Notes under the pieces: generated by a model | What the model saw: the letters and a program-made list of their open reading frames with translations, nothing else | Told to the model about the DNA's origin: nothing | Database searches by the model: none | Assembly (NCBI RefSeq): GCF_021026375.1 | Contig: NZ_JAJNDB010000001.1 | Coordinates: 1,798,001-1,862,000 of the forward strand | DNA from: Actinomycetospora endophytica | GTDB lineage: Bacteria > Actinomycetota > Actinomycetes > Mycobacteriales > Pseudonocardiaceae | DNA: 64,000 bases | Direction of reading: 5' to 3' | Part shown: positions 6,832 through 49,328 of the stretch, piece by piece | Position numbering within the stretch: position 1 is the stretch's first letter | Layout: the number at the start of each line of letters is the position of its first letter | Translations under genes and position numbers: made by a program

Positions 6832-6853
6832 TCGACGCGGCTAGGGTCCGGGC

Positions 6854-7700: not shown

Positions 7701-7710
7701 GCCGAAGGCC

Positions 7711-8449: not shown

Positions 8450-8465
8450 TGTGTCACCAGTCACG
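8450..8465 (-). promoter_or_regulatory. Possible CRP-type operator just upstream of crp
   Basis: TGTGT-N6-TCACG on the plus strand matches the CRP consensus TGTGA-N6-TCACA at 8 of 10 positions. It lies about 65 bp before the crp start. A minus-strand TAGACT at 8482-8477 could be the -10, which would place the site just downstream of transcription start and suggest negative autoregulation. Both elements are inferred from sequence only. Confidence 0.35.
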
Positions 8466-8617
8466 TCTTTCAGAAAAGTCTAGTCGTGTGCAACGCCATG
8501 ATCACGCTGCACGCGCCCGACGCGACCCCCGGGTCTAGCCCCCATGGTCGCCATCCGCGAGCAGCATCCCCCAATCGGACGATCCTACTCGTCATATATG
8601 ACGCCGCTGGGTGAGCG

Positions 8618-8908: not shown

Positions 8909-8981
8909 GCTCCCGCACGCGCGCGAAGCGGCGAGCACCGGGGTCGTCCCGGCGTGTCGGTGGGTTCACTACCCTGGACGG

Positions 8982-12308: not shown

Positions 12309-12323
12309 GTGCGCTGCGCGCTC

Positions 12324-12363
12324 GTGAGCGGTCATTGACGCCAGGGCATCAATGACTGCTCAC
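12324..12363. terminator. Bidirectional terminator between marP and the hydrolase gene
   Basis: A 15-bp stem: GTGAGCGGTCATTGA (12324-12338) pairs with TCAATGACTGCTCAC (12349-12363), with only one G-U pair in RNA, around a 10-nt loop. It lies between convergent genes and includes the stop codon of the minus-strand gene. There is no U tract. Confidence 0.85.
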
Positions 12364-13226: not shown

Positions 13227-13282
13227 CGCGCGGTGCCGCCACGGCCCGGCGAGCGTCGCCGGGTCGTCGTCGGGAAGCTGAC

Positions 13283-13762
13283 TCAGGAGGTCGTCGAGGG
13301 GGCGTCCGAGCGGCCGCGGCGCAGCGCCTCGACCGACTCGCGGGCCGTCTCGATGGTTCGCTCCGGAGCGCGGATCTTGCGGACCTTGAGGTAGCCGAGG
13401 AACCCGGCGATGCCCGCGGTGATCAGCATGATCGCGAACGTCACCGCGTAGCCGGCCCACTGCTGGCTCGGCCAGATGAGGTTGAACGCCTCGGCGACGG
13501 CGAAGAAGAAGTAGAAGAGGCTGAACAGCGCGATGACCGCGGCCACCACGAAGAAGATGCTCCCCTGCACCCCCTTCTTGACCTCGGCCGTGACCTCCTG
13601 CTTGGCGAGCTCGACCTCCGCACGCACCAGGGTGGAGACGTGCGTGGTCACCTCCTTCACGAGCGACCCGACGGACGCGTCGCCGGTGGCGCGCACCGGT
13701 TCGGCGTTGAGCGGGATCGAAGGCACCACGGGGGGTCCTCCGGGAGACGACGGCGAGGTCAC
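13283..13762 (-). CDS. DUF1469 (putative Actinobacterial holin-X) membrane protein, Rv3669 type
   Basis: A 159-residue protein with a short polar N-terminus, an amphipathic helix (SLVKEVTTHVSTLVRAEVEL) and two adjacent transmembrane helices (IFFVVAAVIALFSLFYFFFA and YAVTFAIMLITAGIAGFLGY). A charged C-terminal helix with APERTIETARESVEALRRG follows. This is the DUF1469 / holin-X layout. AGGAG lies 6 nt before GTG 13762, deciding the start. Despite the family name it is a conserved chromosomal gene and not evidence of a phage. It probably forms an operon with the downstream hydrolase. Confidence 0.85.
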   Translation of the reverse strand: MTSPSSPGGPPVVPSIPLNAEPVRATGDASVGSLVKEVTTHVSTLVRAEVELAKQEVTAEVKKGVQGSIFFVVAAVIALFSLFYFFFAVAEAFNLIWPSQQWAGYAVTFAIMLITAGIAGFLGYLKVRKIRAPERTIETARESVEALRRGRSDAPSTTS

Positions 13763-13892
13763 GGGCGCTCCTGGCGGGTCGGGTCGAGAGGGAGCACATC
13801 GTGCCACGACCTTGGCGTGACCGAGTCGTGACACGAGCGCACGGCCGGTGTCTTCCCGATCAAGGCCGACCTCAGTCCTCCGTGAGGACGAC

Positions 13893-14336
13893 TCATTCGC
13901 TCGGCGACCGGCGCAGTGCCTTGCGCTGAGATTGCACTCGCTTGTCTTCCATCCGTCGTAGTCGCGCACCGCGACTGGGACGGCGGGGCCGACGAGCAGG
14001 GGGATCCGGGGCGAGGGCCTCCCGCAGCATCGCCGCCAGGCGTCGGCGTGCCGCCTCCCGGTTGCGTCGCTGCGAGCGGTGCTCGGAGGCGGTGACACTC
14101 GCCCGGGTGCCGTCGATGAGACGCGGAACACGGGCGAGCAGGCGGGCGCGGGCCTCGTCGGGGATGCCCGGCGCCTCGGCCAGGTCGACGACGAGCTCGA
14201 CCCGGCTGTCGGCCGTGTTCACGCCCTGCCCGCCAGGACCGGACGAGCGCGAGAACCGCCAGGTCAGGGCGGCCGCGGGCAGCACGACGTCGTCGGAGAC
14301 CCGGAGGTCTCCGGTGGCGTCGTCGTGGCTGTCCAT
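13893..14336 (-). CDS. arfB: ArfB/YaeJ-like peptidyl-tRNA hydrolase (ribosome rescue)
   Basis: A 147-residue class-I release-factor-like protein. The GGQ motif in SSGPGGQGVN (about residues 31-40) catalyses peptidyl-tRNA hydrolysis, and the ASEHRSQRRNREAA block follows. The Lys/Arg-rich C-terminal tail (LRRMEDKRVQSQRKALRRS) is the segment that ArfB inserts into the empty mRNA channel of stalled ribosomes. The start is ATG 14334-14336; the much longer open frame upstream is antisense to real genes. It is divergent from the next gene across 138 bp. Confidence 0.9.
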   Translation of the reverse strand: MDSHDDATGDLRVSDDVVLPAAALTWRFSRSSGPGGQGVNTADSRVELVVDLAEAPGIPDEARARLLARVPRLIDGTRASVTASEHRSQRRNREAARRRLAAMLREALAPDPPARRPRRPSRGARLRRMEDKRVQSQRKALRRSPSE

Positions 14337-14474
14337 GCCTCCAGTGTCCTGGTGCTGTCGAGCGGGTTGGCCTGCGTCGTCAGAGATGCGGCGAGGCTGA
14401 CGCTGGACGTCAGCAACTCCACATCCTCGGGCGGTGACCTGGGACGCAGCCGGCCACCTGGGACGATGGGCGCC

Positions 14475-15215
14475 ATGACCGCCGCGACCACCGACCCGCT
14501 CGCGCCGCTGCTCGACCTGCCCGGCGTGGCGGAGGGCGCGGAGTCCGTCCGCCGACACGTCGAGGCCGTCCACGCGCACCGCACGAACCGCCGCGGCTGG
14601 CCGACGACGGCGGCCGAGGCCGGCACCCGCGCCGCCCGCGCCTCGGCCGCCCTCGACGGCGGCAGTGCGGACCTCCCGGAGGACGGCCCGGTCACCGACC
14701 CGACGCTCGCCGGCGCGCTGCGCGTGGCGGAGGCGCTCGGCGGCCTGCTGCCGACCTGGCGTCGGGCCCCGCTGCAGGCGCTCGCCCGGCTGCACGTCCT
14801 CGCGGCGACCGACCGGGTACCGGAGTCCGATCTCGGCCGACCGCGTCCGGGCAACTGGGTCTCGGCGCGGCTGGACGCGCTGGCGGGCCTCGTCGTCGGC
14901 GGGACGTCCGTGCCGGGGCCGGTCCTGGTCGGCGTCGTGCACGGCGAGATGCTCGCGCTCTCGCCCTTCCTGGTCGCGAACGGCGTCGTCGCGCGGGCGG
15001 CGGCCCGGCTGACGGCCATCTCGACGGGCCTCGACCCCAAGGGCCTCGTCGTCCCCGAGGTCGGCCACCTGCGCACCGCGACCGAGTACTCCGCGGCGGC
15101 CCAGGCGTTCGCGTCGGGCACCCACGAGGGGCTCTCGCAGTGGTTCTCGCACTGCGTCACCGCCTGGAAGACCGGCGCGAAGGAGGCCACCGGCATCGCG
15201 GACGCCGCGGGCTGA
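14475..15215 (+). CDS. Fic/Fido-like protein with degenerate active site, Rv3662c-like position
   Basis: A 246-residue soluble all-helical protein without a definite assignment; actinobacterial relatives are often labelled oxidoreductase with little support. The stretch HGEMLALSPFLVANGVVARA (about residues 157-176) aligns with the Fic core HxEFxxIHPFxDGNGRxGR, keeping PF, N-G and the spacing. The catalytic His is Ser, the metal Asp/Gly are replaced and the Arg is shifted. If the alignment is right, this is an inactive Fido fold. Start ATG 14475 is used; an in-frame ATG at 14466 would add three residues. It lies upstream of ssd, as in mycobacteria. Confidence 0.6.
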   Translation: MTAATTDPLAPLLDLPGVAEGAESVRRHVEAVHAHRTNRRGWPTTAAEAGTRAARASAALDGGSADLPEDGPVTDPTLAGALRVAEALGGLLPTWRRAPLQALARLHVLAATDRVPESDLGRPRPGNWVSARLDALAGLVVGGTSVPGPVLVGVVHGEMLALSPFLVANGVVARAAARLTAISTGLDPKGLVVPEVGHLRTATEYSAAAQAFASGTHEGLSQWFSHCVTAWKTGAKEATGIADAAG

Positions 15216-15309
15216 CGCCGTTCGGGCGAACGCGCCGTCCCCACCGGCAGTGCGGGTCCCGTCCGTCCCCAGGGTGCGGCCTCGTCGTACCGCTGTTCGC
15301 GGCGTCGGC

Positions 15310-16413
15310 GTGACCCTCCCGGGCGTGGACGGACGACGAGTGACGGTGTGCTGCGACGACGAGGACCTCCTGGACGAGGTGGTCCGCGTCGCCGCGGCGG
15401 CGGGATGCGAGCTGGAGCGGGTGCCGGATGCGGCCGCCCTGCGGCGACGATGGCCGGGCGCCGCGATGGTGCTGCTCGACGAGGCGGCGGCGCGGGCGGT
15501 CGCGGGCGTGCGGCTGGGACGGCGCGACGGCGTGGTGGTGCTGTGCCGCGGTGACCCGCCGGGCAGCGTCTGGGAGCGCGCGGTGGCGGTCGGTGCGGAG
15601 CACGTCGTGTCGCTGCCGGAGGGGGAGGACTGGCTGGTCTCGGCGCTGTCGGACACCGTCGAGGAGGGGGCGGTCGGGGACGGGCGGGTCGTCTCGGTGA
15701 TCGGCGGGCGCGGCGGGGCGGGTGCCTCCGTGCTGGCTGCGGCGGTCGCCGTGCGGGCCCACGACGAGGGCGCCCGGGTGCTGCTCGTGGACTGCGACCC
15801 GCTGGGCGGCGGGCTGGATCTGGTCGTCGGCGCGGAGCAGGTCGAGGGGCTGCGCTGGCCGGGGCTCGCGCTCGGCGGCGGCCGGGTCGCGGCGTCGTCG
15901 TTGCACGAGGCGCTGCCCGCGGCCGAGGACGGATCGCCCGCGCTGACCGTGCTCTCCTGCGACCGGCACGGCCCCGGCCCGGCCCCCGACGCGGCGCGGG
16001 CGGTGGTCGACGCGGGCCGCCGCGCGGGCGACACCGTGGTGTGCGACCTGCCCCGGCACCTGACCGACGCGGCCGCGGCGGTGCTCGACGCCTCGGACCT
16101 GACGGTGGTCGTGGTGCCGGCCGAGGTCCGGGCGACGGCGGCCGCGTCCCGGGTGGCCCGGCAGGCGGCCGACCGGGGCGCGACGGTGGCCGTGGTGGTG
16201 CGGGGGCCCTCACCCGGCGGGCTGGTGGGTGACGACGTGGCCGAGGCCCTCGGCCTCGACGTGCTCGTCTCGATCGACGCGGAGCCTGGGCTGGCGGCGT
16301 CGCTCGACCGCGGGGCGGTGCCCGGGGTGCGGCGCGGGCCGCTGGCGGAGGCCGCGGGGGCGGTCCTGGACGCGCTCGACCAGCTCCGGGGAGGGCGGTC
16401 CGCGGCGGCCTGA
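15310..16413 (+). CDS. ssd: Septum-site-determining protein Ssd (MinD/CpaE-like)
   Basis: A protein of about 367 residues with a receiver-like N-terminus (VTVCCDDEDLLDEVVRVA) and a C-terminal MinD/CpaE-like P-loop domain. The Walker A is deviant, IGGRGGAGASVLAAA near residue 120, lacking the usual Lys, as in mycobacterial Ssd (Rv3660c). It is followed by LLVDCDPLGGGLDLVVG. Ssd inhibits septation in mycobacteria, and CpaE-like proteins also place Tad pili. Adjacency to tadA supports either role. I chose GTG 15310 (VTLPGVDGRRVTV); the frame is open from 15250. Confidence 0.87.
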   Translation: MTLPGVDGRRVTVCCDDEDLLDEVVRVAAAAGCELERVPDAAALRRRWPGAAMVLLDEAAARAVAGVRLGRRDGVVVLCRGDPPGSVWERAVAVGAEHVVSLPEGEDWLVSALSDTVEEGAVGDGRVVSVIGGRGGAGASVLAAAVAVRAHDEGARVLLVDCDPLGGGLDLVVGAEQVEGLRWPGLALGGGRVAASSLHEALPAAEDGSPALTVLSCDRHGPGPAPDAARAVVDAGRRAGDTVVCDLPRHLTDAAAAVLDASDLTVVVVPAEVRATAAASRVARQAADRGATVAVVVRGPSPGGLVGDDVAEALGLDVLVSIDAEPGLAASLDRGAVPGVRRGPLAEAAGAVLDALDQLRGGRSAAA

Positions 16414-16499
16414 CCGATGGAACCACGACCCGGCTCACCCGCGCGGTGGGCCGGGTCGTCGTCGTGCGCTGGTGACGATCGCGGCGTTCGGCCCAGCGG

Positions 16500-16537
16500 T
16501 TGTCCCCAGCCGGCACCGAGGGCCCGGGTTGTCCACA
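16500..16537 (+). promoter_or_regulatory. Two DnaA-box-like nonamers between ssd and tadA
   Basis: TTGTCCACA at 16529-16537 is a perfect actinobacterial DnaA box. TTGTCCCCA at 16500-16508 differs by one base and has the same orientation, 29 bp away. They lie in the 202-bp gap upstream of tadA. No other origin feature (AT-rich unwinding element, dnaN) is near, so regulation by or titration of DnaA is more likely than an origin. Confidence 0.4.
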
Positions 16538-16615
16538 GGCGGGCGGCTCGGGCTGGGAGATCGGGGTGCGGGGCGGGGAGCGTCGTCTTCCACGAGAGCG
16601 AGGGCGGTGACGGGA

Positions 16616-17230
16616 ATGGCGGTCGAGGCGGGGAGCGGCGAGGTCGGTGACCTCGTGGAGCGGGTCCGGGCGCGGTTGGCGGGCGCGGGCGGTGAGGCGG
16701 GGGTCGCGGAGCTCGCGGCGGCGGTGCGGGCCGAGGCACGGGGCGTGGTCGGTGACGCCGACGTGCTGGCGGCGGTCCGCGCGCTGCAGCGGGAGTTCGT
16801 CGGCGCGGGGCCGCTGGAGCCGTTGCTGCGCGACCCGGCGACCTCGGACGTGCTCGTCACCGCCCCGGACGCGGTGTGGGTCGATCGCGGGGCGGGCCTC
16901 GAGCGGGCCGCGGTGGAGTTCGCCGACGAGGACGCGGTCCGGCGCCTGGCGCAACGGTTGGCGGCCGCGGCCGGCCGCCGGCTGGACGACGCCAGCCCCT
17001 ACGTCGACGCGCGGCTGCCCGGGAGCGGGGTGCGGCTGCACGCGGTGCTGCCTCCGGTGGCTGCCGACGGGACCTGTGTCTCGCTGCGGGTGCTGCGCCC
17101 GGCCCGGCACGATCTCGACGCGCTCGAGGTGGGCGGCACCGTCGACGCGGCCGGGCGGGCACTGCTCGAGGCCGTGGTGGCCGCGCGGCTGGCCTTCCTC
17201 GTCGTGGGCGGCACGGGGTCAGGAAATACG
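16616..17230 (+). pseudogene. tadA: tadA/cpaF secretion ATPase, truncated in its Walker A by the prophage
   Basis: The first about 204 residues of a TadA/CpaF-family ATPase (Rv3659c type) that powers Tad/Flp pilus assembly. Visible are the N-terminal helical domain, GPLEPLLRDPATSDVLV and the SPYVDARLPGSGVRLHAV block of the family. The sequence then reaches the Walker A, GGTGSG, where Lys should follow; Asn is encoded instead and phage sequence begins. The frame continues through phage DNA to a stop at 17719, giving an unrelated tail. The rest of the gene (Walker B, Asp and His boxes) must lie beyond the right end of the prophage. Start ATG 16616 (MAVEAGSGE). Confidence 0.88.
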
Positions 17231-17255
17231 GTGGTCACACCATACGCTCAGAGGC
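17204..17255. other. Left attachment junction (attL) of the prophage
   Basis: Host codons for VGGTG end around 17216-17224, after which the tadA frame diverges (TCA GGA AAT instead of the expected Ser-Gly-Lys codons). The serine integrase gene starts at 17256, so the phage half of attL is about 30-35 bp. The exact 2-bp crossover cannot be placed without the right junction. It is expected inside GGCACGGGGTC (17210-17220) or immediately after. Confidence 0.8.
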
Positions 17256-18677
17256 GTGCCAGCCGACAAGCTCACTCGGGCAGCGATCTACTGCCGCATC
17301 TCCCAGGACCGGATCGGTGCTGGGCTGGGTGTCGAGCGGCAGCGCGAGGAGTGCCAGGAGCTGGCCGAGCGGCTGGGCTGGACGGTCAGCGGCGTCTACG
17401 TCGACAACGACATCTCGGCGTTCTCCGGCAAGCGCCGTCCGCAGTACGACCGTCTGCTCGCCGACATCCGGGAGGGCCGGGTCGACGCGGTGATCGCCTG
17501 GCACACCGACCGCCTGCACCGCTCACCCATCGAGCTGGAGACCTACATCTCCGCCAGCGAGCGTCACGGGACGCTGACCCACACCGTCCGCGCGGGCTCG
17601 CTGGACCTGAACACACCCTCGGGAAGGATGGTCGCCCGCATGCTCGGAGCTGCCGCTCGCCAGGAGAGCGAGCACAAGGGCGAGCGGATCGCCGCTGCAC
17701 GGGCTCAGGCGGCCCGTGAGGGTCGGTGGCAGGGCGGCATCAGGCCGTTCGGTTTCGAGGCCGATGGAGTGACACTCAGGCCCCAGGAAGCGGCCGAGAT
17801 CAGGCGGGCGGCCGACTCGATCCTTGCAGGCGGGTCGCTGCGGGGGGTCGTGCTCGACCTCAACGGCCGCGGGGTGCTCACGTCGACCGGGCGGACCTGG
17901 CACTCGCGCACCCTCAAGTCGATGCTGATCCGGCCGCGGAACTCGGCCCAGCTCGTCTACCACGGCGAGGTCACCGGTCAGGCTCCGTGGCGGGAGATCA
18001 TCAGCCCGGACGAGCGGCTGCGGATCCAGCAGCTGCTCGCTGACCCTGCGCGCCGCACCTCGACGGGCAACCAGGTGAAGTGGCTGCTGTCGGGCCTGGC
18101 CTTCTGCGGGGTCTGCGGATCTCAGCGGATCGTGTGCAACACCTCGGGCGGGTCGCGGCCCGGCCAGTACCGGCCACCGGCCTACCGCTGCGGCGCCCGG
18201 GAGTTGGTCAAGCGCTCGAACCACCTGGTCCGCCACCAGCCCAACGTCGACAAGCTGGTGACCGAGACCGTCCTCGCTCGCCTGGAGCGCGAGGACGCCC
18301 GGGAGCTGATCACCACCACCGACGCCGCGGTGGACACCGCCGCCATCACGGCCGAGATCGAGACCATCCGGGAACGGCGCACCTCGCTGGCCGAGATGGC
18401 CGCGGACGGCCTGATGAGCCCCGCGGAGTACCGAGTGGCCCTGACGCGGATGAGCGAGCGCACGAGCGAGCTGGAGGCCCAGCTGCTCTCGGTCCCGACG
18501 TCGAGTCCGCTGGCCGTGCTGGTGAACGCCGAGGACGTGCACGAGGTCTGGGAGGGCCTGGACCTCGGCCGGAAGCGAGCGGTGATCGACGCGCTGATGA
18601 CCGTCACTCTGATGCCGAGTAAGAACCGGGGCCCGGTGTTCGACGCAGAGAGCGTGGACATCACCTGGAAGATGTGA
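17256..18677 (+). CDS. int: Large serine recombinase (phage integrase)
   Basis: A 473-residue serine integrase. The N-terminal resolvase domain has the catalytic Ser in YCRISQD (Ser16), and the conserved Arg pair in DNDISAFSGKRRPQYDRLL and IAWHTDRLHRS. A recombinase domain with GGIRPFGFE and the long-insertion segment LRGVVLDLNGRGV follows. The zinc ribbon starts LAFCGVCGSQRIVC and closes at YRCG. A coiled coil lies near the C-terminus (ITAEIETIRERRTSLAEM). GTG 17256 gives VPADKLTRAAIYCR; the frame is open far upstream into tadA but that part is host DNA in another frame. It catalyses attP x attB integration, here in tadA. Confidence 0.95.
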   Translation: MPADKLTRAAIYCRISQDRIGAGLGVERQREECQELAERLGWTVSGVYVDNDISAFSGKRRPQYDRLLADIREGRVDAVIAWHTDRLHRSPIELETYISASERHGTLTHTVRAGSLDLNTPSGRMVARMLGAAARQESEHKGERIAAARAQAAREGRWQGGIRPFGFEADGVTLRPQEAAEIRRAADSILAGGSLRGVVLDLNGRGVLTSTGRTWHSRTLKSMLIRPRNSAQLVYHGEVTGQAPWREIISPDERLRIQQLLADPARRTSTGNQVKWLLSGLAFCGVCGSQRIVCNTSGGSRPGQYRPPAYRCGARELVKRSNHLVRHQPNVDKLVTETVLARLEREDARELITTTDAAVDTAAITAEIETIRERRTSLAEMAADGLMSPAEYRVALTRMSERTSELEAQLLSVPTSSPLAVLVNAEDVHEVWEGLDLGRKRAVIDALMTVTLMPSKNRGPVFDAESVDITWKM

Positions 18678-22005: not shown

Positions 22006-22037
22006 AACCCCCGCCGGGAATGACATCCGGCGGGGTT
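22006..22037 (+). terminator. Intrinsic terminator after the long winged-helix gene
   Basis: AACCCCCGCCGG (22006-22017) pairs with CCGGCGGGGTT (22027-22037) with one bulged C and a 9-nt loop, followed by CTTCAT. It lies 23 bp after the stop codon, separating this gene from the HNH cluster. Confidence 0.75.
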
Positions 22038-22124
22038 CTTCATGCCCCGCCTGTCTGTCGGCCAGGTCTCCACCTAACGGGTGGAGGGACATCTCGGTCT
22101 CTCCGGAACCTCGGGAGACATGCC

Positions 22125-22781
22125 GTGAACGGCATCAAGAACACCATCGAGAACCCGGCGGGACTTCCCGCCGGGCCGGAAGAGAACTGGAAGCCCATCC
22201 CGGGCTTCCCCGGCTACCTGGCCAGCGACCTCGGCCAGCTCCGCGGCCGGAAGGGCGGCATCCTCGCCCAGCAGATCGACGAGCACGGGTACCACCGCAT
22301 CACGCTGCGCGACGCGCGGGGCCGGAGCCGGACCCGGTTCGTCCACAACGTGATCCTGGAGGCGTTCGTCAGCCTCCGTCCGGCCAAGCTGGACGGCTGC
22401 CACAACGACGGCGACCAGGACAACAACGCGCTGACGAACCTCCGGTGGGACACCCGGTCGGCGAACACCTACGACAAGGTCCGGCACGGCACCCACAACT
22501 ACGGCTCCCGGAACCGGTGCGACTGGGGGCACGAGTACACCGAGTTCAACACCCAGATGGCCAAGGTCAGCGGCGGCTCGGGCCGCCGCTACCGCCGCTG
22601 CCGGGCGTGCAATGCCGCCGGTGCCACCGTCTGGTACGCGGGCAAGCACGGCGAGCAGCTGGACTTCCAGCAGGTCGCCGACGGCAAGTTCGAGACCTTC
22701 CGGGCCGAGCACGAGGCCCGGCTCCGGGAGGACGCCCAGCAGCTCGCTGAGGGCCAGAAGCGCCAGGCGGTGGCCGCGTGA
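22125..22781 (+). CDS. HNH endonuclease with NUMOD4 domain
   Basis: A 218-residue homing-type endonuclease. The N-terminal NUMOD4 domain (WKPIPGFPGYLASDLGQLRG, about residues 22-41) is a DNA-contact module of phage HNH enzymes. It is followed by a beta-rich segment and the HNH core with CHNDGDQDNNALTNLRW near residue 88. The C-terminal part has RCDWGHEY and RCRACN, which may bind zinc. GTG 22125 has GGGAG 8 nt upstream. It could be a free-standing homing endonuclease or a packaging helper. Its stop overlaps the next start, linking it to the small-gene string. Confidence 0.88.
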   Translation: MNGIKNTIENPAGLPAGPEENWKPIPGFPGYLASDLGQLRGRKGGILAQQIDEHGYHRITLRDARGRSRTRFVHNVILEAFVSLRPAKLDGCHNDGDQDNNALTNLRWDTRSANTYDKVRHGTHNYGSRNRCDWGHEYTEFNTQMAKVSGGSGRRYRRCRACNAAGATVWYAGKHGEQLDFQQVADGKFETFRAEHEARLREDAQQLAEGQKRQAVAA

Positions 22782-27711: not shown

Positions 27712-29297
27712 GCAACGCCTCCAGGACATCGAGACCGAGCGCTCCCGCTCGATCGACGTCTTCTCCGAGCTGGGCTACGTGCCCACGCCCCGGCAGGAGG
27801 TGTTCCACGCCGCCACCGAGTTCAGCGTCCTCTACGGAGGAGCTGCCGGTGGTGGCTGAGTAGGGCAAGACGAAGGCTCTGGTCAGCGAGGGACTGCGCA
27901 AGGCGATCCAGTACCCCGGCATCCGCATCGGGGCGTTCCGGCGCACCTACGGCGAGCTGGAGGAGTCGCTGCTGGCTGAGCTGGCCGCCTACGGCTACGC
28001 CAAGGACCTCGGCGCCCGGTGGAACCAGACCGAGAAGAACCTGACGTTCCCCAACGGCTCGCTGCTGATGTTCCGCTACGCCGAGAACATGCTCGACGCC
28101 ACCCGGCGCCAGGGCGGGCAGTACCAGCTCCTGCTCTTCGACGAGATGACGCTGACCGACCCGCGGGTGATCCGGTTCCTGTCCTCGCGACTGCGCACCG
28201 GTGACCCCGAGCGGCTCCCGGTGCTGGGTGTGCGAGCCGGGAGCAACCCGGGCGGTGTCGGCCACGGCTGGGCCAAGACCACCTTCATCGACCCGACCGA
28301 GGGTGGCACCAAGGTCCACGTCGACGAGCGTGGGCGGACCGTGCGGTTCATCCCGGCCAAGATCGACGACAACCCGCACCTGAACCCGGAGTACGCCGAG
28401 GACCTCAACACCCTCGACGAGGCCACCCGAGCCGCCATGCGTGACGGCTCCTGGACCAGCTTCTCGGGGCAGGTGTTCACGGTGTGGCGCGACGACCGGC
28501 ACATCGTCCCGGCCTCCATCGAGCTACCCGCCTCGTGGCTGCGATACGGCGGACTGGACTACGGCTGGTCGGCTCCCTCGGTCTACGAGCTGATGGCCCG
28601 GGACCAGGACGGCCGGGTGTGGCTCTACGGCGAGCTGGTGATGCGTGAGACGCCCGAGGCCGAGCAGGCCCGCCGGGTGCTCGCGCTGGAAGGCAACCAC
28701 CCGCCGTGCGTGCGGGCCGCGGACCCGGCGATGTGGGGCAAGACCTCCTCGGCGCTGCCGGTGGCGGTCACCTACGCCCACGAGGGCGTCCCGCTTCGCC
28801 GGGCCGACAACGACCGGCTCTCCGGCAAGGCCCGGGTGCACTCGTACCTGGAGGACGGACCGGCCTGCGGCTACCACCGCCAGCTGGGCTGGGCGACCTG
28901 CCCGATGCTCCACGTGCTCGACGGGGCCTGCCCGGAGCTGGTCTCCACCCTGCCGAACCTGGTCTACGACAAGAACCGGCCCGAGGACGTCGACACCCAC
29001 GGCGACGACCACGCATTCGACGCCGCCCGCTACGCCCTGATGTCGGTCGGGGCGACGCCGCACCTGGTGCTCGAAGGCGTGCCCGAGCGCGAGCCGATCA
29101 CCGACCCGTCCGAGCGCCACATCGAGCGCGGCGACGTCGCCTTCCGGCCCGCCGACCTCGACAACGCCGGAGCCCGCCGCCTGGAAGACCACCAGGACCT
29201 GAACGACCTGCAGTCCGACCCGGCGCTGGCCCGGGCCGACGGCGAGCTACCCGAGTGGCTGGGCAAGTCCCAGCGCGCGCCCTGGCTCACCGACTGA
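27626..29297 (+). pseudogene. terL: Terminase large subunit, reading frame broken inside the Walker A
   Basis: Two open segments make one TerL. The first (27626-27859, 77 residues) ends SVLYGGAAGGG then TGA. The second (27864-29297) begins GKTKALVSEGL one frame away. Joined, they give the phage ATPase P-loop GGAAGGGKTK. Between them is TGAGTAG, with stops in both frames, flanked by GGC on each side. The rest is intact: Walker B LLLFDEM, coupling motif, and the RNase-H-like nuclease with GGLDYGWSAP, AADPAMW and DDHAFDAARYAL. It is either a 10-bp frameshift that disables packaging, a sequence error, or a translational hop between the two GGC codons. No ATG for an active C-terminal piece precedes the P-loop Lys. 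Confidence 0.85.
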
Positions 29298-29727: not shown

Positions 29728-31155
29728 GTGCTCACCGCCTCCGGACAGATGATCGGCATCGCCGAGGCAGCGAGCGCCCCGGCACCGGCCGGACCGCCCG
29801 CCTCGCGGCTCGGTCTGGAGTCCGACGTCCCCCGCGGTGGCTCCTCGGACTACAACCCGGGCGGGGTGTACCCGAACGGCGCCGAGCGCCGGTCGTTCAT
29901 GGACGAGTGCGCCGGAGCCTACGAGGCCTGCCCGCCGCTCTCGGCCGCGGTGGACGTCACCGCCCGCACCGTGACCGCCGGTGGCCTGGAGGTCGTCCCG
30001 GACGACGACAATGAGGAGGCCGACGAGACCGCACCCCCGCGCGAGGTGCTGCGGCTGCGCAAGCTGCTCAAGTTCGTCAACGAGCGCGAGGACATCCGCC
30101 AGCTGCTGCGCGGGGTCGCGGTCGACGTCCAGGTGTTCGGCGACGCCTTCCTGGAGGTCGTCTGGCTGCTCGGCGAGCCGGTGGGGCTGTACTCGCTCCC
30201 GGCCAACACCATGACCGTGGAGGCCGACGAGCACGGCACGGTGACCGGCTACTCGCAGCGGGTCGACACCCACCCCGAGGCGATCGAGTTCTCACCGAAC
30301 CAGGTCATCCACATCCCGGGTGACTCGGTACGCGGCTCGCTCTACGGGCTCGGCATCGTGCAGAAGGCGTTCTGGCCGATCGCCACCTACCTGTTCGCGG
30401 CGGCGCTGCTCAAGGAGCGGATGCGCCGCGGCGACCCGCCGGACCTGCACGCGGACGCTCCGCTGGAGGTCCCGGAGAACGAACTCAAGACCTGGAAGCA
30501 GCAGTACAAGGTCATGAACGTCGGGGCGGCCAACATCGGCAACCCGATCATCAGCCGCGGCGGCTTCAACATCAACGAGCTGCGCACCGCGGCCCGCTCG
30601 GACCTGGTGGCCATCCAGACCTGGTGCCGCGACTCCATCCTCAACGTGGCCGGTGTGCCGCCCGCCCAGGTCGGCATCATCGAGTCCGGCAATCTCGGCG
30701 GCGGCACCGGCACCAGCCAGTTCAAGACGTTCCGCATCAACACCTGCGGGCCGCTGGGCCAGCTGATCCTGGAGAAGCTGAACTACTTCCTGCTCCGGGC
30801 GTTCGGCATCTCCGGTTGGCACATGGAGCTGAACGAGGTCGACTACCGCGACGACCTGATCATCGAGCAGATTCGGGACATCCGGCTGCGCAACGGCTCC
30901 TGGACGCTCAACGAGCTGCGCGGCGACATCGGCGAGCCCCCGCAGCCCTACGGCGACAACAACGTCGTGGTCGAGCGCAGCTACGTCATGAGCTGGGACC
31001 TGATGCAGGCGTACTCCCAGTCGATGATCAACAAGAACAACAGCGCGGATGCTGCCGCACCCCCTGCTCCGGGAGAGCCAGGACATGCGCCACCGGAGGA
31101 AGAGACGCGCGCTCCGTCATTCCAGGGATGGGACGAACGGGCCCGCCGCCGCTGA
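29728..31155 (+). CDS. Portal protein
   Basis: A 475-residue dodecameric head vertex protein of the HK97/SPP1-type portal family. Signs are the acidic clip region, GDAFLEVVWLLGEPVGLYSL, then FSPNQVIHIPGDSVRGSLYG, which matches the portal stem/crown pattern, and the long C-terminal helices ending in a disordered Pro/Glu-rich tail. GTG 29728 is used. It follows terminase as expected. It forms the DNA channel and binds TerL. Confidence 0.88.
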   Translation: MLTASGQMIGIAEAASAPAPAGPPASRLGLESDVPRGGSSDYNPGGVYPNGAERRSFMDECAGAYEACPPLSAAVDVTARTVTAGGLEVVPDDDNEEADETAPPREVLRLRKLLKFVNEREDIRQLLRGVAVDVQVFGDAFLEVVWLLGEPVGLYSLPANTMTVEADEHGTVTGYSQRVDTHPEAIEFSPNQVIHIPGDSVRGSLYGLGIVQKAFWPIATYLFAAALLKERMRRGDPPDLHADAPLEVPENELKTWKQQYKVMNVGAANIGNPIISRGGFNINELRTAARSDLVAIQTWCRDSILNVAGVPPAQVGIIESGNLGGGTGTSQFKTFRINTCGPLGQLILEKLNYFLLRAFGISGWHMELNEVDYRDDLIIEQIRDIRLRNGSWTLNELRGDIGEPPQPYGDNNVVVERSYVMSWDLMQAYSQSMINKNNSADAAAPPAPGEPGHAPPEEETRAPSFQGWDERARRR

Positions 31156-41143: not shown

Positions 41144-41512
41144 ATGCACGTGCGCAACATCGCCAGCCACCCGGTCGACGCCCCCGACGGCTCGTGGCTG
41201 CTGCCCGGTCAGACCGCCGAGTGGGATGACGAGGACTTCGCCAGCCAGATGGTCGAGGCGAAGCTCGTCGAGGACGTCGACCAGGCCCCGAGTGGCTCGT
41301 CCGGAGGCTCCAACACGGCCTCCAACGACTCATCGACTACTTCGACGCCGAGTTCTGGAGTCCAGAACGGCTCCAACACGCCGTCGAGCCCCTCCAGCAC
41401 GCCCGCGGCGCCCTCGCCCGGCCCGGTGACCCCCTCGCAGCCCTCAGCGGCCCCGTCCGCAACGAACGACTCGGCCCCTGCGGCCCCGACGAGTGAGGAC
41501 ACGACCTCATGA
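41144..41512 (+). CDS. Small protein with Ser/Pro-rich tail, upstream of sheath
   Basis: A 122-residue protein. The first about 45 residues (VRNIASHPVDAPDGSWLLPG, then TAEWDDEDFASQMVEAKLVE) look like a compact fold related to the gene at 37344. The remaining 75 residues are Ser/Thr/Pro/Ala low complexity. GGAAGAGG precedes ATG 41144. Its stop overlaps the sheath ATG. The role is unknown. Confidence 0.6.
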   Translation: MHVRNIASHPVDAPDGSWLLPGQTAEWDDEDFASQMVEAKLVEDVDQAPSGSSGGSNTASNDSSTTSTPSSGVQNGSNTPSSPSSTPAAPSPGPVTPSQPSAAPSATNDSAPAAPTSEDTTS

Positions 41513-43011
41513 GCAGCATCCAGGCCCCGGGCACCAAGGTCTTCGCGCAGACCGCGCTGCCCTCCTCGACCGCGAACCCGTCCACCTCGACGTGGTTCGC
41601 CGCCGGACCGACCCAGCGCGGTGCGGTCGGCACCCCGATCACGCTGAACTCGATGGCCGACTACGCCCACTTCTGCGGCCAGCGGACCCCGGCCACGGCG
41701 CTGTTCTACGACGCGCTGGAGCTGTTCTTCCGCGACGGCGGCACCCAGGCCCTGGTCTCGCGGCGGGTCGGCGGATCCGCGGCCACCGCGAGCCTGATGC
41801 TCAAGGACAAGGGCACCTCCGGCGGCCAGAACACCCTGCAGGTGCAGGCCAACTCGCCGGGCGCCTGGGGCAACCAGGTGACCGTCGAGGTCGACGCGGC
41901 GGGCACCAACGGCTTCACGCTGACCGTCTCCGGTCCCGGCGACACCGCAGGCACCACCTTCATCGAGGTCTCGCCGACGCTGTCGAGCCCGGCCGACGCG
42001 GTGAACTGGTCCTCGGCGAGCCGGTTCGTGACGATCTCCGACCAGGCCTCGTCGACGACCGCGCCGAACAACATCCCGGCGACGATTGCGGGCACCGCGC
42101 TGGCCCTGGGCGCCGACGACAACGGCTCGGTCACGGACACGACGATCGCCGCCGACCTCGCGGTGTTCGCTCAGGACTTCGGCCCCGGCCAGGTCTCGGT
42201 GCCCGGCGCGACGACCGACACCGCGCACCGGGCGATCCTGGTTCACGCCACCAGCAACAACCGGGTGGCGCTGCTCGACGCGGTGGACACCCCGGTCGCC
42301 AGCACGCTGCTCACCGAGGCCACCAACGCGGTGGCCAACGGCGTGGACCTGGGCCACGGCGGCATCTTCGCTCCCTGGGTGAAGATTCCCGGCGTCCCGG
42401 CGCAGGGCCCGATCCCGACTGCGCTGCGCACCGTCCCGCCGTGCGCGCTGGCCGCGGCCGGGTGCTCTCGGGTCGACGCCGCGGGCAATCCGAACGTCGC
42501 CCCCGCGGGCGACTCGGGTGTCTCCTCGTACGCCGTCGGGGTCACCCAGGTGTTCTCGGAGTCCGACCGCGCCAACCTCAACCAGGCGGGCGTGAACGTC
42601 GTCCGGTACTTCAACGGGGCCCAGCAGGTGAAGCTCTACGGCTTCCGGACGCTGAGCCAGGACCCGCTGCACATCCAGATGAACTGGGCCCGGCTGGACA
42701 TGGCCATCTTCTCCGACGCCGCGCGCATCGGTGAGCAGGTCGCCGGATGGGCGCAGATCGACGCCCGCGACCAGGTCTTCGCCGCGTTCAAGGGCGCGCT
42801 GACCGGGATGCTGTCGAACTACTGGATGGCGAACGCGCTCTACGGCGTCGACCCGTCCGATGCGTTCTCCGTCGACGTCGGTTCCGACGTGAACACGGTC
42901 GCGACCCGGCAGGCCGGGCAGATCAACGCGTCGATCGCGGTGAAGCGTTCCCCGGTCGGCGAGTTCGTCAACATCGGCGTCGTCTCGGTGCCGATCTCGC
43001 AGAACTTCTGA
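41509..43011 (+). CDS. Tail sheath protein
   Basis: A 500-residue contractile sheath subunit. Sheath signs are the N-terminal STSTWFAAGPTQRGAVGTPI, a beta-rich middle domain, LGHGGIFAPWVKIPGVPAQG with PCALAAAGCSRVDA, and the conserved C-terminal helix/strand pair NQAGVNVVRYFNGAQQVKLY to MALNWARLD-type residues. The end (KRSPVGEFVNIGVVSVP) is the strand-exchange arm. It shows that this phage has a contractile tail. ATG 41509 overlaps the previous stop. Confidence 0.92.
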   Translation: MSSIQAPGTKVFAQTALPSSTANPSTSTWFAAGPTQRGAVGTPITLNSMADYAHFCGQRTPATALFYDALELFFRDGGTQALVSRRVGGSAATASLMLKDKGTSGGQNTLQVQANSPGAWGNQVTVEVDAAGTNGFTLTVSGPGDTAGTTFIEVSPTLSSPADAVNWSSASRFVTISDQASSTTAPNNIPATIAGTALALGADDNGSVTDTTIAADLAVFAQDFGPGQVSVPGATTDTAHRAILVHATSNNRVALLDAVDTPVASTLLTEATNAVANGVDLGHGGIFAPWVKIPGVPAQGPIPTALRTVPPCALAAAGCSRVDAAGNPNVAPAGDSGVSSYAVGVTQVFSESDRANLNQAGVNVVRYFNGAQQVKLYGFRTLSQDPLHIQMNWARLDMAIFSDAARIGEQVAGWAQIDARDQVFAAFKGALTGMLSNYWMANALYGVDPSDAFSVDVGSDVNTVATRQAGQINASIAVKRSPVGEFVNIGVVSVPISQNF

Positions 43012-44386: not shown

Positions 44387-44402
44387 GGGGGTGCGAGCCC
44401 CC

Positions 44403-47400
44403 ATGCCCGCCAACATCGAAGACGTCGGCATCCGTGTCGCTCTCATGGGTCGCGGTGACTACATCGCGTCGATGCGGGAGATGCAGAAGTCGCTCGACGA
44501 CTTCGTAGCCGCCAACAAGGCGGCTGGAACGTCGGCCAAGGGCATGGGGGTCTCCACCGACGAGTCCAAGGCGGCGGTGGACCGGCTCAAGGCCGCCACC
44601 CAGACCGCCATCGGGGCGCAGCGGGAGTACGAGGCCGCGCTCAAGCAGGCGGCCACGGCGGCCAAGGAGGCAGCCTCTAGCGACGACGCCGCGGCGCAGT
44701 CCCGCAAGCGGGCCGCCGACCAGCAGGTGACCAGCTCGAAGGCGGCGCGCGACGCAGCGCTGGCCGAGCAGCAGGTCGCCAAGGACGGCGTGAAGGCCGA
44801 GGAGGACCTGGCCGAGCGCACCCGGCTGGCCGGGGTCAAGAAGCAGTCCACCTGGGATTCGTTCAAGCAGACCGTGCTCGGGGCCTCGACCGGCATCACC
44901 GGTGCCTCGGCCGGGATCGCGGCCAAGGAGGCCGACAGCGCCGCGAAGATCGAAGCGGCCAACGTCCGCAAGAGCGCGTCCTGGGGTCAGGCCCTCAAGG
45001 CCTCGCAGATGTTCGCGGTCGGGCTCGGGGTGGCGCTGGTCGGCGTCTCAGCGACGACCATCAAGAGCGCCTCGGACTTCCAGGCCTCGATGGAGCGCAT
45101 CTCCACCCAGGCCAACGTCCCACAGGCAGCGATCAAGGGGCTCTCCGACGGCGTCCTCCAGCTCGCGGGCCAGGTCGGTGAGGATCCCGGGTCGCTGGCC
45201 GACGCGATGTATCACGTCCAGTCCTCGTTCGCCGGGGCCGGACTGTCTGCGCAGAAGTCGATGGACATCCTGCGGGTGGCCGCTGAGGGCGCCCGAATCG
45301 GCGGAGCGAACCTCGTCGACGTCACCAACGCCATGGACGCCGCGATCGTCTCCGGCATTCCCGGCGTGCAGGATTACAACAAGGCGATGGGTGCGCTGAA
45401 TGCCACCGTCGGTGCCGGTGACATGAGCATGCAGAACCTGGCCGAGGCGCTGGGTACTGGTGCGCTCGCGGTCATCAAGAACTACGGCGTCACCATGAAC
45501 GACGCCTCGGCCGCGCTGGCGGTATTCGGTGACAACAACATCCGGGGCGCCCAGGCCGGTACCCAGCTTCGGATGTCGGTGCAGGCGTTGTCGACGCCGA
45601 CGAAGGCCGGAGTCGCGGACCTGGCGAAGCTGGGAATGACCCAGAAGCAGCTCGCCGATGACATGCGCACCGGTGGCCTCAACAAGGCAATGATCGACCT
45701 GAACACGCACATGCAGAAGGCAGGTATCACCGGCGACAAGACCGGCCAGTTCATCACCGAGGCATTCGGCAAGAAGGCCGGTACCGGCATCGCGGTGCTG
45801 ATGGGGCAGTTCGATCGCTTCCAGCAGAAGCTCGGTGAGGTCGACAAGGGCGCGAACACCTTCGCTCAGTCGTGGGCCGGAACCCAGGCCACCTTCCAGG
45901 GAAAGCTCAAGGACATGGAGGCCGGGGCTCAGGCCACCGGCATCAAGATCGGCATGGCGCTGCTACCCATCGCCGGGAAGGTCCTCGACGTCTTCACCTG
46001 GGCGTTCTCCGGCGTCGGCCGGGTGCTCGACTGGCTCGGCGACCACAAGTGGGCCGTGATCGGCATCGGGGCCGCGATCGGCACGGCCCTGATTCCCGCC
46101 CTGATCGCGGCCACGATCGCCACCTGGAACTTCACGGTGGCGCTGCTGGCCAACCCGTTCACCTGGATCGTCATCGGGGTCGGGCTCGTCGTGGCCGCCA
46201 TCGCCTGGCTGGCCATGAACTGGGGCACCGTCACGAAGGCGGTCGGGGCGGCCTGGCATTGGCTCTACGACAACGCCGTGAAGCCGGTGACCGACGCCAT
46301 CGGTACGGCCTGGCACGCGGTCTACACCAACGTGATCAAGCCGGTCGGTGACTTCTTCGCCTCGACCTTCCGGGCCATCGGTGCCGCGGGCTCGTGGCTC
46401 TGGCACAACGCGCTGGAGCCCGCGTTCAACGGCATCGTGACGGTCCTCAAGTGGGCCGGGGCGATCATCTTCACGATCCTCGTCGCGCCGTTCGTGCTGG
46501 CGTTCAACCTGATCAAGGGTCCGGCGCTGATCTTCTGGCACAACGTCATCGAGCCGATGGCTCACGGCGTCGCCGCGGCGTTCATCTGGCTCTGGAACAA
46601 CGGCGTCCTGCCGGTCGCGAACTGGATCGGCGACAAGTGGAACTGGCTCTACAACAACGTCTTGCGACCGGTCGGTCAATGGATCGTCGACCGGCTGCAC
46701 GACACCGGTGCCGGATTCCAATGGTTGTGGAACAACGCCGTCGTTCCGGTGGCCAACTGGATCGGTGACAAGTGGCATTGGCTGCACGACAATGTCATGC
46801 GGCCGGTCGGCCAATGGATCATAGATCGACTGCACGATCTCGGCGCCGTTTTCGAGTGGCTGTGGAACAACGCCGTTCTGCCGGTGATCAACTGGATCTC
46901 CGACAAGTGGCATTGGCTGCACGACTCGGTGATGAAGCCGGTCGGCGACGCGATCGGCACCGTGATCCACGACGTCGGTCAGGCGTTCTCGAACGTCGTC
47001 GACTGGATCAGCCGTACCTGGCAGACGATCAAGGACATCGTCTCGGTGCCGGTGCACTTCGTGGTCGACACCGTCTACGGCAAGGGCATCAAGCCCACCT
47101 GGGACGCCATCGCCGGAGTCTTCGGGCTGCCGAAGGCCCCCGCGGCCCCAGGCTTCGCCACCGGCGGTGTGGCCGGGGACCCGGTCTACGCCGACTCGGG
47201 GGCGGTGATGCCCGGCTACGCGCCGGGGATCGACTCGATCCACGCCATGGTCTCGCCCGGCGAGGCGATCATGGTTCCGGAGTGGACCAGGATCATGCGG
47301 GGGCTGTTCGGTCCGAACGCCATCGACATGATGAACATGGCGGCGATGGGTGGGCGGGCCGGGCCGATGGGCAACGTCGGCGGGCTCGCGTTCGCTGCCG

Positions 47401-48398
47401 GTGGCGCCGTCGGCGACCTCCCGGCGGTGCCGCTGCCGCGGCCCGGACCCAGCGTCGGGATCGCGCAGTCGGCGCTGTCGATGTTCTCCAACCTGTTCAA
47501 CATCCCGCAGCTGATCACCGACCCGAAGGGCTACTTCACCAGCCTCTTCCGCCCGGTCACCGACCCGCTCAACGGGATGGGGACGTCGCGGTTCATGGAG
47601 GCCATGAAGGACGTCCCCGGCAAGGCGATCGACGGCATCGTCGCCAAGGTCAAGGACTGGCTGTCGTCGATGATGTCCGGCGGTGCAGCGATGGGACCCG
47701 AGTCCGCGTCGCACGCCCTCGACATCGTCAACGCCGCCAAGGCCAAGGGCCTGCACCACGACGCCGCGGTCATCGCCCTGATGACCGGCATGCAGGAGTC
47801 CGGCATCCGGGTGCTGGCCAACCCGGCCGTCCCGGCGTCGATGGCTCTGCCGCACGACGGGGTGGGCCATGACCACGACTCGGTCGGCATCTTCCAGCAG
47901 CGCCAGAGCTGGGGGCCGACGCCGCTGCTGATGAACCCGTTCGGTAGCGCTGAGCTGTTCTACAACAAGCTCGGCGGCGGTCCCTACGGGGACTTCGGCT
48001 CCGCGGCCCAACGGGTGCAGGTCTCGGCGTTCCCCGGGGCCTACTCGAAGTGGCAGGGACAGGCGACCGCGCTCGCCGGTCCGACGTTCGCCGGTGGCGG
48101 CATCGTCGGCCTGCCCTTCGGGGGAGCGCGCGCAGTCGGCGGCTCGATCAGCCCGGGGGCGTCCTACTGGGTCGGCGAGCAGGGGCCCGAGCTGGTCACG
48201 CCGAACGTCCCGGGGATGGTCATCCCGTCCTCGGGCTCGGAGTCGGTCGCCGAGGGCTCCGGGTTCACGCCCGGCCCGCGGGTGGTCTTCGAGAACGGGG
48301 CCATCCAGATCAGCGGGGTCACCGACCCCGTGATGGCGGCCAACGCCGCGGCCAACGCGGTGGCCAAGCGGGTCTCGGACTCGATCGCCCGCCAGTAA
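44403..48398 (+). CDS. Tape measure protein with C-terminal muramidase-like domain
   Basis: A 1331-residue protein that sets tail length. Order: N-terminal Ala/Lys coiled coil (60-160), TMP core (about 195-540), a hydrophobic segment IGIGAAIGTALIPALIAATI continuing to about 606, and Trp-rich repeats. Three repeats are near-identical 45-residue units (about 727-861) with WLWNNAVVPVANWIGDKWHW. The last part (about 1102-1220) is the actinophage transglycosylase-like domain with MTGMQESGIRVLANPAVP and GVGHDHDSVGIFQQ, probably cutting peptidoglycan on entry. ATG 44403 is chosen; GTG 44391 has no room for a ribosome site. Its N-terminus follows the chaperone by 16 bp. Confidence 0.92.
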   Translation: MPANIEDVGIRVALMGRGDYIASMREMQKSLDDFVAANKAAGTSAKGMGVSTDESKAAVDRLKAATQTAIGAQREYEAALKQAATAAKEAASSDDAAAQSRKRAADQQVTSSKAARDAALAEQQVAKDGVKAEEDLAERTRLAGVKKQSTWDSFKQTVLGASTGITGASAGIAAKEADSAAKIEAANVRKSASWGQALKASQMFAVGLGVALVGVSATTIKSASDFQASMERISTQANVPQAAIKGLSDGVLQLAGQVGEDPGSLADAMYHVQSSFAGAGLSAQKSMDILRVAAEGARIGGANLVDVTNAMDAAIVSGIPGVQDYNKAMGALNATVGAGDMSMQNLAEALGTGALAVIKNYGVTMNDASAALAVFGDNNIRGAQAGTQLRMSVQALSTPTKAGVADLAKLGMTQKQLADDMRTGGLNKAMIDLNTHMQKAGITGDKTGQFITEAFGKKAGTGIAVLMGQFDRFQQKLGEVDKGANTFAQSWAGTQATFQGKLKDMEAGAQATGIKIGMALLPIAGKVLDVFTWAFSGVGRVLDWLGDHKWAVIGIGAAIGTALIPALIAATIATWNFTVALLANPFTWIVIGVGLVVAAIAWLAMNWGTVTKAVGAAWHWLYDNAVKPVTDAIGTAWHAVYTNVIKPVGDFFASTFRAIGAAGSWLWHNALEPAFNGIVTVLKWAGAIIFTILVAPFVLAFNLIKGPALIFWHNVIEPMAHGVAAAFIWLWNNGVLPVANWIGDKWNWLYNNVLRPVGQWIVDRLHDTGAGFQWLWNNAVVPVANWIGDKWHWLHDNVMRPVGQWIIDRLHDLGAVFEWLWNNAVLPVINWISDKWHWLHDSVMKPVGDAIGTVIHDVGQAFSNVVDWISRTWQTIKDIVSVPVHFVVDTVYGKGIKPTWDAIAGVFGLPKAPAAPGFATGGVAGDPVYADSGAVMPGYAPGIDSIHAMVSPGEAIMVPEWTRIMRGLFGPNAIDMMNMAAMGGRAGPMGNVGGLAFAAGGAVGDLPAVPLPRPGPSVGIAQSALSMFSNLFNIPQLITDPKGYFTSLFRPVTDPLNGMGTSRFMEAMKDVPGKAIDGIVAKVKDWLSSMMSGGAAMGPESASHALDIVNAAKAKGLHHDAAVIALMTGMQESGIRVLANPAVPASMALPHDGVGHDHDSVGIFQQRQSWGPTPLLMNPFGSAELFYNKLGGGPYGDFGSAAQRVQVSAFPGAYSKWQGQATALAGPTFAGGGIVGLPFGGARAVGGSISPGASYWVGEQGPELVTPNVPGMVIPSSGSESVAEGSGFTPGPRVVFENGAIQISGVTDPVMAANAAANAVAKRVSDSIARQ

Positions 48399-48422: not shown

Positions 48423-49328
48423 ATGGCGCCGGACGTCTACGCCACGCCGATCGACCCCCCGGGCCCGGCGGTCGGCTTCCGGCTGCTCGGGGACGGCAAG
48501 ATCTCGGACTACAGCTCGGGCGGGTACGCCTGGACCGCGGTCGACCGATCGCACCGGCAGCCCTACGTCGAGTACACCTCGGACCTGCTCGCCCAGATCG
48601 AACTCCCGCTGATGCTCGACGGGATCAGCACGAACACCGCGGTCAACAACACCTCGGTCGAGCCCCAGGTGGCCGCGATCAAGTCCTGGCGCAAGCCCAA
48701 CGCCTCGACCGGCAAGGGCACCGTGCTCTCGCTGACCGGCCCGGTGGACACCGTCGGAATCTCCGGCTGGGTGGTCATGTCGCTCTCGCTCGACGAGGCC
48801 ATCCGCGCGAGCAACGGGGTGCGGATCCAGCAGAAGCTCACGCTGACGCTGATGGAGTACACCGACACCAACTCGGCCCTGACCGCCTCTCCGGCGGCCG
48901 AGGCCTCGGTGTCGCTGCCCTACCCGTTCAACATGCTCAGCCCGCAGCTGCAGGGCCTGGCGGGCCAGTACACCGGCAACCTCGCCGAGCTGGCCGCGCA
49001 GTTCTCCTCGAACCTGTCCGGGCTGCAGGAGTACGTCGCCCAGAACGGGCCCTCGCTGGCCAAGCTGGCCAACGCGGTGCCCCAGCTCCAGCAGCAGGTC
49101 CACGACGAGCTGGCTCAGCTGGCCGCGGCGCTGCCCTCGGTGCTGGCGACGCTGCCGACCTCGACAACCACCACGCACCGGGTCGTGGTGGCCAAGCCCG
49201 GCGACACGCTGGAGAAGATCGCGCAGCGGGAACTAGGGGATTGGCGCAAGTGGCCCGCCCTAGCAACGATCAACAGTCTGCGGGACCCCGACCTAATCTA
49301 CGTCGGTCAGAAGATCCTGCTTCCTTGA
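48423..49328 (+). CDS. LysM-domain baseplate protein
   Basis: A 301-residue protein. Residues 30-165 are beta-rich (IELPLMLDGISTNTAVNNTS, VVMSLSLDEAIRASNGVRIQ). A helical spacer with LSGLQEYVAQNGPSLAKLAN follows. The C-terminal LysM (about 257-301: HRVVVAKPGDTLEKIAQREL, then the YVGQKILLP end) binds glycans or joins hub subunits. Such proteins join the tape measure to the hub in contractile tails. Confidence 0.83.
   Translation: MAPDVYATPIDPPGPAVGFRLLGDGKISDYSSGGYAWTAVDRSHRQPYVEYTSDLLAQIELPLMLDGISTNTAVNNTSVEPQVAAIKSWRKPNASTGKGTVLSLTGPVDTVGISGWVVMSLSLDEAIRASNGVRIQQKLTLTLMEYTDTNSALTASPAAEASVSLPYPFNMLSPQLQGLAGQYTGNLAELAAQFSSNLSGLQEYVAQNGPSLAKLANAVPQLQQQVHDELAQLAAALPSVLATLPTSTTTTHRVVVAKPGDTLEKIAQRELGDWRKWPALATINSLRDPDLIYVGQKILLP

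Follow-up and report, generated by a model that had tools for sequence, protein, structure and literature searches.

A phage-like element with a large serine integrase at the Walker A lysine codon of tadA in Actinomycetospora endophytica, and the same insertion site in other genomes

The interrupted tadA locus

The window analysed here is a stretch of 64,000 nucleotides from the 6.98-Mb genome of Actinomycetospora endophytica (G000:C9:1798001-1862000), in which the gene tadA/cpaF is interrupted at position 17225 by a phage-like element of 57,360 bp (core to core, 1872585 minus 1815225) with a large serine integrase. The locus contains the following features, given in window coordinates.

15250..16413, + strand: ORF upstream of tadA, weak ParA/CbiA-type ATPase matches (E 8e-5 to 5e-3 across 7 families, of which CBP_BcsQ alone exceeds its cut-off)
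16616..17224, + strand: tadA/cpaF 5' part, codons 1-203, ends GGTGSG (PF00437 profile 4-154, 7e-18)
17204..17250, + strand: attL, with bacterial arm 17204-17224, AA core 17225-17226 and phage arm 17227-17250, the latter with CGCTCA at 17245-17250
17225..17226, + strand: crossover dinucleotide AA, first two bases of the Walker A lysine codon
17227..64000, no strand: phage-like element, in-window portion (ends at window-equivalent 74584)
17256..18677, + strand: large serine integrase, 473 aa, GTG start (Resolvase 6.6e-32, Recombinase 3.8e-7, Zn_ribbon_recom 1.1e-5)
22020..22781, + strand: HNH endonuclease (phrog_1492, 3.3e-50)
28068..29297, + strand: terminase large subunit (phrog_2, 2.1e-24)
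29728..31155, + strand: portal protein (phrog_12, 5e-32)
41509..43011, + strand: tail sheath, contractile tail (phrog_17610, 5e-17; phrog_279, 9.8e-14)
44391..48398, + strand: tail tape measure plus a stretch matching an endolysin family (phrog_8927, 9e-50; phrog_971, 6.7e-72)
48423..49328, + strand: baseplate/endolysin-like protein (phrog_380, 2.3e-10; phrog_975, 1.8e-7)
From G000:C9:1872585 (window-equivalent 74585), outside the window: tadA 3' part (PF00437 profile 155-273, 1.7e-29)

The assignment to TadA/CpaF rests on PF00437 (T2SSE) matches of both halves and on their position within a tad locus, in which two T2SSF genes, a DUF4244 gene and a Tad gene follow downstream with open frames. 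The ORF upstream of tadA is presumably CpaE/TadZ-like, judging from its position. As the original prediction had stated, the tadA frame runs to GGTGSG, the lysine is then replaced by asparagine (codon AAT), and an integrase start lies close by, namely the GTG at 17256, 29 bases past the AA core and co-directional with the tad genes. The 3' part expected to the right is located 10.6 kb past the window end, where it begins K-T-T-V-L-S (AAG ACG ACG GTG) and remains open to its stop. A PF00437 profile search of the whole genome (E 0.001) returned the two tadA halves and no other match, neither an intact tadA elsewhere nor a second PF00437 gene. The split tadA is the genome's only recognisable gene for a Tad pilus motor, and its interruption by an insertion, already proposed from the window, is borne out. 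The ORF at 16647-18677, a candidate for a TadA-integrase fusion, is the integrase frame; the tadA frame is a different one and stops at 17719. At attR (L001:1498-1503), the phage arm puts an in-frame GTG immediately 5' of the lysine codon, and the tadA 3' half could thus in principle be translated alone.

The prediction of a serine integrase agrees with its domain content, as PF00239 (111 bits), PF07508 (30.7 bits) and PF13408 (26.1 bits) all exceed their cut-offs. Terminase, portal, and tail genes are found between the att ends, as in a temperate tailed phage, and the GC content of the element is 69.6%, compared to 76.2% in window positions 1-17224. Of 20 PHROGs queries, drawn from part of the element's ORFs, nine returned no family, and the families matched by the remaining queries did not include a capsid protein, a repressor or a directionality factor. 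An origin from a known isolated phage was considered and rejected for this integrase, since all 983 matching phage records are less than 60% identical (39.8% for the best-ranked row); the 1,028 matches of the S. canus integrase discussed below are likewise all below 60% identity. Past the window, at the element's right end, an FtsK/SpoIIIE-like protein is encoded on the minus strand (L003:7673-9919; phrog_1358, 3.7e-40; PF01580), which is unusual near phage structural genes. The genome also encodes a second serine integrase (G000:C12:426980-428320) with 31% identity to the first.

Attachment site

The junctions read ..GGA AA TAC.. at attL and ..GTG AA GAC.. at attR. The second base before AA is a T in attR, where the glycine codon of tadA needs a G, and the first base after AA is a T in attL, where relatives have a G. 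Barring later mutation, the exchange must have taken place between these mismatching bases, and as only AA is common to both ends in this interval, the core is AA. The junction letters thus show that strand exchange took place at the AA that opens the lysine codon. Long direct repeats at the element ends, including the GGCACGGGGTC-type repeat originally predicted, are ruled out by the comparison of both junctions, in which AA is the only unambiguously shared sequence in A. endophytica.

The attP arms are mirror-symmetric around the AA core. In A. endophytica, TGAGCG at -24 to -19 (attR) mirrors CGCTCA at +19 to +24 (attL), and the other elements have mirrored GGTGTC-like and GACACC-like arms. 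When the arms were paired over 13 shifts, the zero shift gave the best score in all 11 elements (with a tie in G189), with p values against shuffles of 0.001 to 0.029 per element (n = 11), for an arm region picked after inspection of the arms and for elements that are not independent (the G056 and G069 arms are near-equal, and four are Streptomyces elements). Both junctions could be read in 11 tadA elements, all of which are compatible with AA at the lysine codon, and A. endophytica fits AA alone.

Elsewhere in the genus the site is uninterrupted, tadA being unsplit in 15 of 17 other species (14 with the full PF00437 stretch and G032 cut at a contig edge); the PF00437 search found no match in G031 and G035, genomes of 59% and 83% completeness. 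All 15 tadA-bearing relatives encode GGTG-x-GKTT with an AAG lysine codon preceded by C or G. That attB is the P-loop-coding DNA of tadA, as proposed earlier, is well supported, with the same tadA codon used in 15 genomes.

Distribution of the split tadA

Matches to the integrase were found in 149 of 390 family genomes (A. endophytica included), 18 named loci, and 21 IMG/VR loci. A search for the site among related integrases had been suggested, and tadA is split at the Walker A lysine codon in 14 further genomes, giving 15 distinct genomes with G000: Longimycelium (G252), a Kutzneria MAG (G225), S. acidiscabies (G391), S. canus (G392), S. speibonae (G398), Prescottella defluvii (G399), and G056, G069, G189, G394, G395, G760, G597, and G533. 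The junctions were read from both sides in 11 of these; for G760, G597, and G533, the site is placed by a 3' match that starts at the lysine. In G225 a contig end truncates the integrase, in G399 it is frameshifted, and for G189 no integrase was seen.

A TadA half ending at residue 203 or starting at the lysine adjoins 8 of the 48 loci L004-L051 (some of them duplicates). Integrase matches better than 1e-70 occur in 36 other genomes, among which tadA is found in two pieces in five, in one piece in 28, and without a match in three. For the 17 genomes behind the named loci, the corresponding numbers are eight (two of them already in the 36-genome set), six, and two, with a 46% match only in the remaining genome. 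Many of the one-piece tadA rows have one stop within the aligned stretch. In a set of 394 Streptomycetaceae genomes, five (S. canus included) encode an integrase within 1e-90 of the S. canus integrase, and four of these five integrases adjoin a TadA 3' half; the fifth (47% identical) is in a genome with a one-piece tadA. Apart from S. canus itself, tadA is split in three of four genomes with such an integrase. The P-loop site is a repeated habit of this integrase group and not an accident.

The two tadA halves lie on one contig in 10 of the 15 genomes and on different contigs in G189, G225, G391, G395, and G398. Element sizes calculated from match positions are ~10 kb in G399, 17 kb in G069, 20 kb in G056, and 37-42 kb in G252 and five Streptomycetaceae, compared to 57.4 kb in A. 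endophytica. The position of the integrase also varies: it lies next to the tadA 5' half and co-directional with it in G000, G056, G069, and G399, but in G252, G392, G394, G395, and G398 it adjoins the 3' half in antisense orientation. A T2SSE paralogue (~40% identity) is retained in 12 of the 15 genomes, i.e. in all except G000, G056, and G399. In the region G399:C1:12000-39000 of Prescottella defluvii (L157, L207, L044), a second serine integrase is encoded at ~C1:15189-16559 in addition to the 10-kb tadA insert, and the ORF adjoining it has a weak TadE match (22.3 bits vs. a cut-off of 22.9). Perhaps two elements reside in one tad locus there.

A second target, eccC

In a search of 10 genomes, all of them carrying such integrases, the TIGR03924 (EccCa) match is interrupted at model position 461-466 in four, namely G323, G393 (Williamsia), G193, and G192 (repeated by G396), with full-length matches in G000, G191, G252, and G056. 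In all four split genomes the junction falls on AA in the lysine codon of Walker A, and in G192 only AA fits (attL ..GGA AA CAC.., attR ..GTG AA GTC..). Three of the 3' pieces (G323, G393, and G193) match both EccCa and EccCb. The neighbourhood comprises EccB, WXG100, a tRNA pseudouridine synthase, and a PGM/PMM gene in G323, and EccD and L13 in G393. We take the esx-4 neighbourhood of M. tuberculosis to have EccC beside EccB/EccD and near truA and rplM/glmM. We call the split eccC loci, which would belong to a type VII secretion system, ESX-4-like, as each examined locus has part of the neighbour set.

Over the first 32 bases, the phage arm at tadA in G189 hardly differs from that at eccC in G192, and the two diverge thereafter. 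Near-equal att arms thus occur at either gene. A use of eccC where tadA is missing does not account for the choice of target, as G192 and G193 lack a TadA match, but G323 and G393 have a one-piece tadA. In G025, a member of the same genus as A. endophytica (L183, L195), eccC is split near DFKGGATF and not at Walker A, and adjoins another related integrase (43% identical), a second site within eccC.

Integrase phylogeny and other targets

The integrase tree comprises 63 rows, from which duplicates (L005, L021, L106), a near-copy (L006, of L008), the short frameshifted L157, and IMG/VR integrases weaker than 1e-40 or of at most 380 residues were left out. Mapped onto this tree, the tadA label (10 rows) requires 7 changes compared to a shuffled mean of 9.4, a value as low being reached in 10 of 500 shuffles, and the eccC label (4 rows) requires 4 changes without clustering (500/500); IMG/VR rows without a known target were scored as "other" and two of them are identical to tadA rows, which inflates the number of changes. 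All 10 tadA rows and three of the four eccC rows fall into one group of 31 rows (support 91), outside of which the Williamsia eccC integrase (L038) is placed.

Among the other targets, as named by eye, that of L007 is a HAD-like stretch, GKPAPDVYL, and L016, L022, and L023 are located where a low-molecular-weight phosphatase gene starts. Such targets, and the one-piece tadA in 28 of the 36 best other carriers, show that P-loop genes are not obligatory for the integrase group taken as a whole. The integrase L008 (near-copy L006; G192, G191) is 85-87% identical to the eccC-associated ones and adjoins a 75-residue ORF reading K-ASLLTHF without a Pfam match, which is perhaps another P-loop ATPase.

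Integrated and free forms

In the assembly of S. acidiscabies NRRL B-16521, one contig breaks off within tadA, four bases upstream of the lysine codon, and a second contig begins at that point. The two sides of attP form the ends of a 32,003-bp contig and are cut at the same position. These ends are joined to an intact attP in an IMG/VR contig of 56,561 bp, and a similar attP was recognised by eye in five further of the 21 IMG/VR loci (L160, L161, L165, L167, and L168). Coexisting integrated and free forms would explain the contig breaks in S. acidiscabies, a pattern seen at the level of the assembly. The 56.5-kb contig contains attP once, whereas a repeated 32-kb circle should show a second copy 32 kb further on, which is at odds with reading it as a repeat of that circle.

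Relation to known systems

Bxb1 is a named case of a large serine integrase phage in a coding gene, groEL1, and the Listeria comK prophage is a case of active lysogeny, in which a phage resides within a gene that excision rebuilds. The tadA element resembles the latter in lying inside a gene which excision would rebuild, but differs in that excision in Listeria is regulated and non-lytic, while the element described here is known from sequence alone. The insertion of large serine integrase phages and elements into coding genes has been catalogued, with targets enriched in competence genes (PMC10083194). The elements in that catalogue share the domains, the short core, the mirror-symmetric attP, and a conserved coding site common to distant integrases, but here the integrases target tadA or eccC at the Walker A lysine codon. 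None of the terms pilus, secretion, ATPase, T2SSE or FtsK occurs in the main text of PMC10083194, although its supplements may list the site. Mobile genetic elements in comK, comYC, comFA, and comM likewise split genes of a DNA-uptake machine, and the idea that elements benefit from disabling uptake was published with these cases (PMC4774983), the main text of which has no word starting with tad. Here, the targets are the Tad motor and an ESX-4-like system in Actinomycetota, and a role in uptake would be by analogy. Among the open-access matches listed, titles and abstract starts mention no prophage in tadA or eccC, and the text seen of PMC12915292 refers to tadA and to a prophage in separate places. 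Insertion into tadA and eccC adds a repeated, codon-exact attachment site, the lysine codon of P-loop export ATPases, to those of the serine integrases. Some of the broken tadA and eccC genes of actinobacteria would then be accounted for as attB sites that are occupied, and integrase/attP sets become available whose attB is widespread among Actinomycetota.

Proposed mechanism and alternative explanations

We propose, with a probability of about 85%, that a temperate phage with a contractile tail has integrated into the Walker A codons of tadA via its large serine integrase, and that this site is a habit of the integrase group. The integrase would have recombined attP with the Walker A-coding DNA by strand exchange at the AA of the lysine codon, leaving a 5' piece of tadA that lacks the lysine and a 3' piece that lacks GGxGxG. 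As both pieces are incomplete, neither a working TadA nor assembly of Tad/Flp pili is expected, and A. endophytica has probably lost both. In the 12 genomes that retain a T2SSE paralogue, pilus loss need not follow. Since nothing is lost with a 2-bp core, excision with the help of a directionality factor should rebuild tadA, and exact restoration is plausible.

Why this site was chosen can be answered in several ways. Most likely, P-loop DNA became the site of the group on account of its conservation and wide occurrence and because the genes concerned are ones that the host can spare. That it is merely a conserved, common and dispensable landing site, from whose loss the element gains nothing, has in our view a little over an even chance of being correct. 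This is consistent with the HAD-like and phosphatase targets of the same group, and the near-equal attP arms at tadA and eccC are as expected from drift between similar P-loop sequences. Yet the two certain targets are both uptake-linked export motors, although a genome has many P-loop genes, which may count against a neutral choice.

An added gain from lost DNA uptake is possible. A prophage can be deleted when chromosomal DNA from outside enters the cell and recombines, and elements may thus profit from disabling uptake machines, as argued for the competence gene insertions (PMC4774983) and in line with the target enrichment reported in PMC10083194. In Micrococcus luteus, deletion of any tad gene except tadB abolished transformation (PMC4322843), and ESX-4 of Mycobacterium smegmatis is induced in recipients and promotes conjugal transfer (PMC9040860), which ties both targets to DNA uptake; by analogy with M. 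luteus, hosts with a split tadA may have lost transformation. A ComEC-type PF03772 match is present in 14 of the 15 split genomes, but this does not discriminate, as it is also found in 10 of 14 control genomes and is absent from the split genome G225. The retained T2SSE paralogues and the other targets of the integrase group speak against this explanation, which we regard as rather unlikely; to our knowledge, these other targets have no role in DNA uptake. Equally tentative is its most explicit version, in which the group targets the Walker A lysine codons of TadA (competence pilus) and of EccC of ESX-4 (conjugal recipient), so that lysogeny would shut off the uptake of chromosomal DNA and shield the prophage from curing until exact excision returns the machine. 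A comparison of lysogens with cured strains could tell whether Tad pili and ESX-4 serve DNA uptake in actinobacteria at large.

It is less probable still, and in our view unlikely, that the phage excises without lysis under set conditions, allows Tad pili to be made when needed, and then reinserts. Such active lysogeny, the kind of switch put forward in the original prediction, would fit the exact site, the open tad frames on either side of the insertion, and the S. acidiscabies contigs, which suggest mixed states. In A. endophytica, moreover, the placement of the integrase just downstream of the core and its direction mean that tad transcription could reach it, but the varying side and direction of the integrase in other elements argue against a general coupling to the tad promoter. 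Finally, nothing was found in favour of an assembly chimera of phage and chromosome, which has a negligible probability, given that the complementary tadA halves and both junctions lie on one 2.2-Mb contig and that 14 other genomes show the identical codon split.
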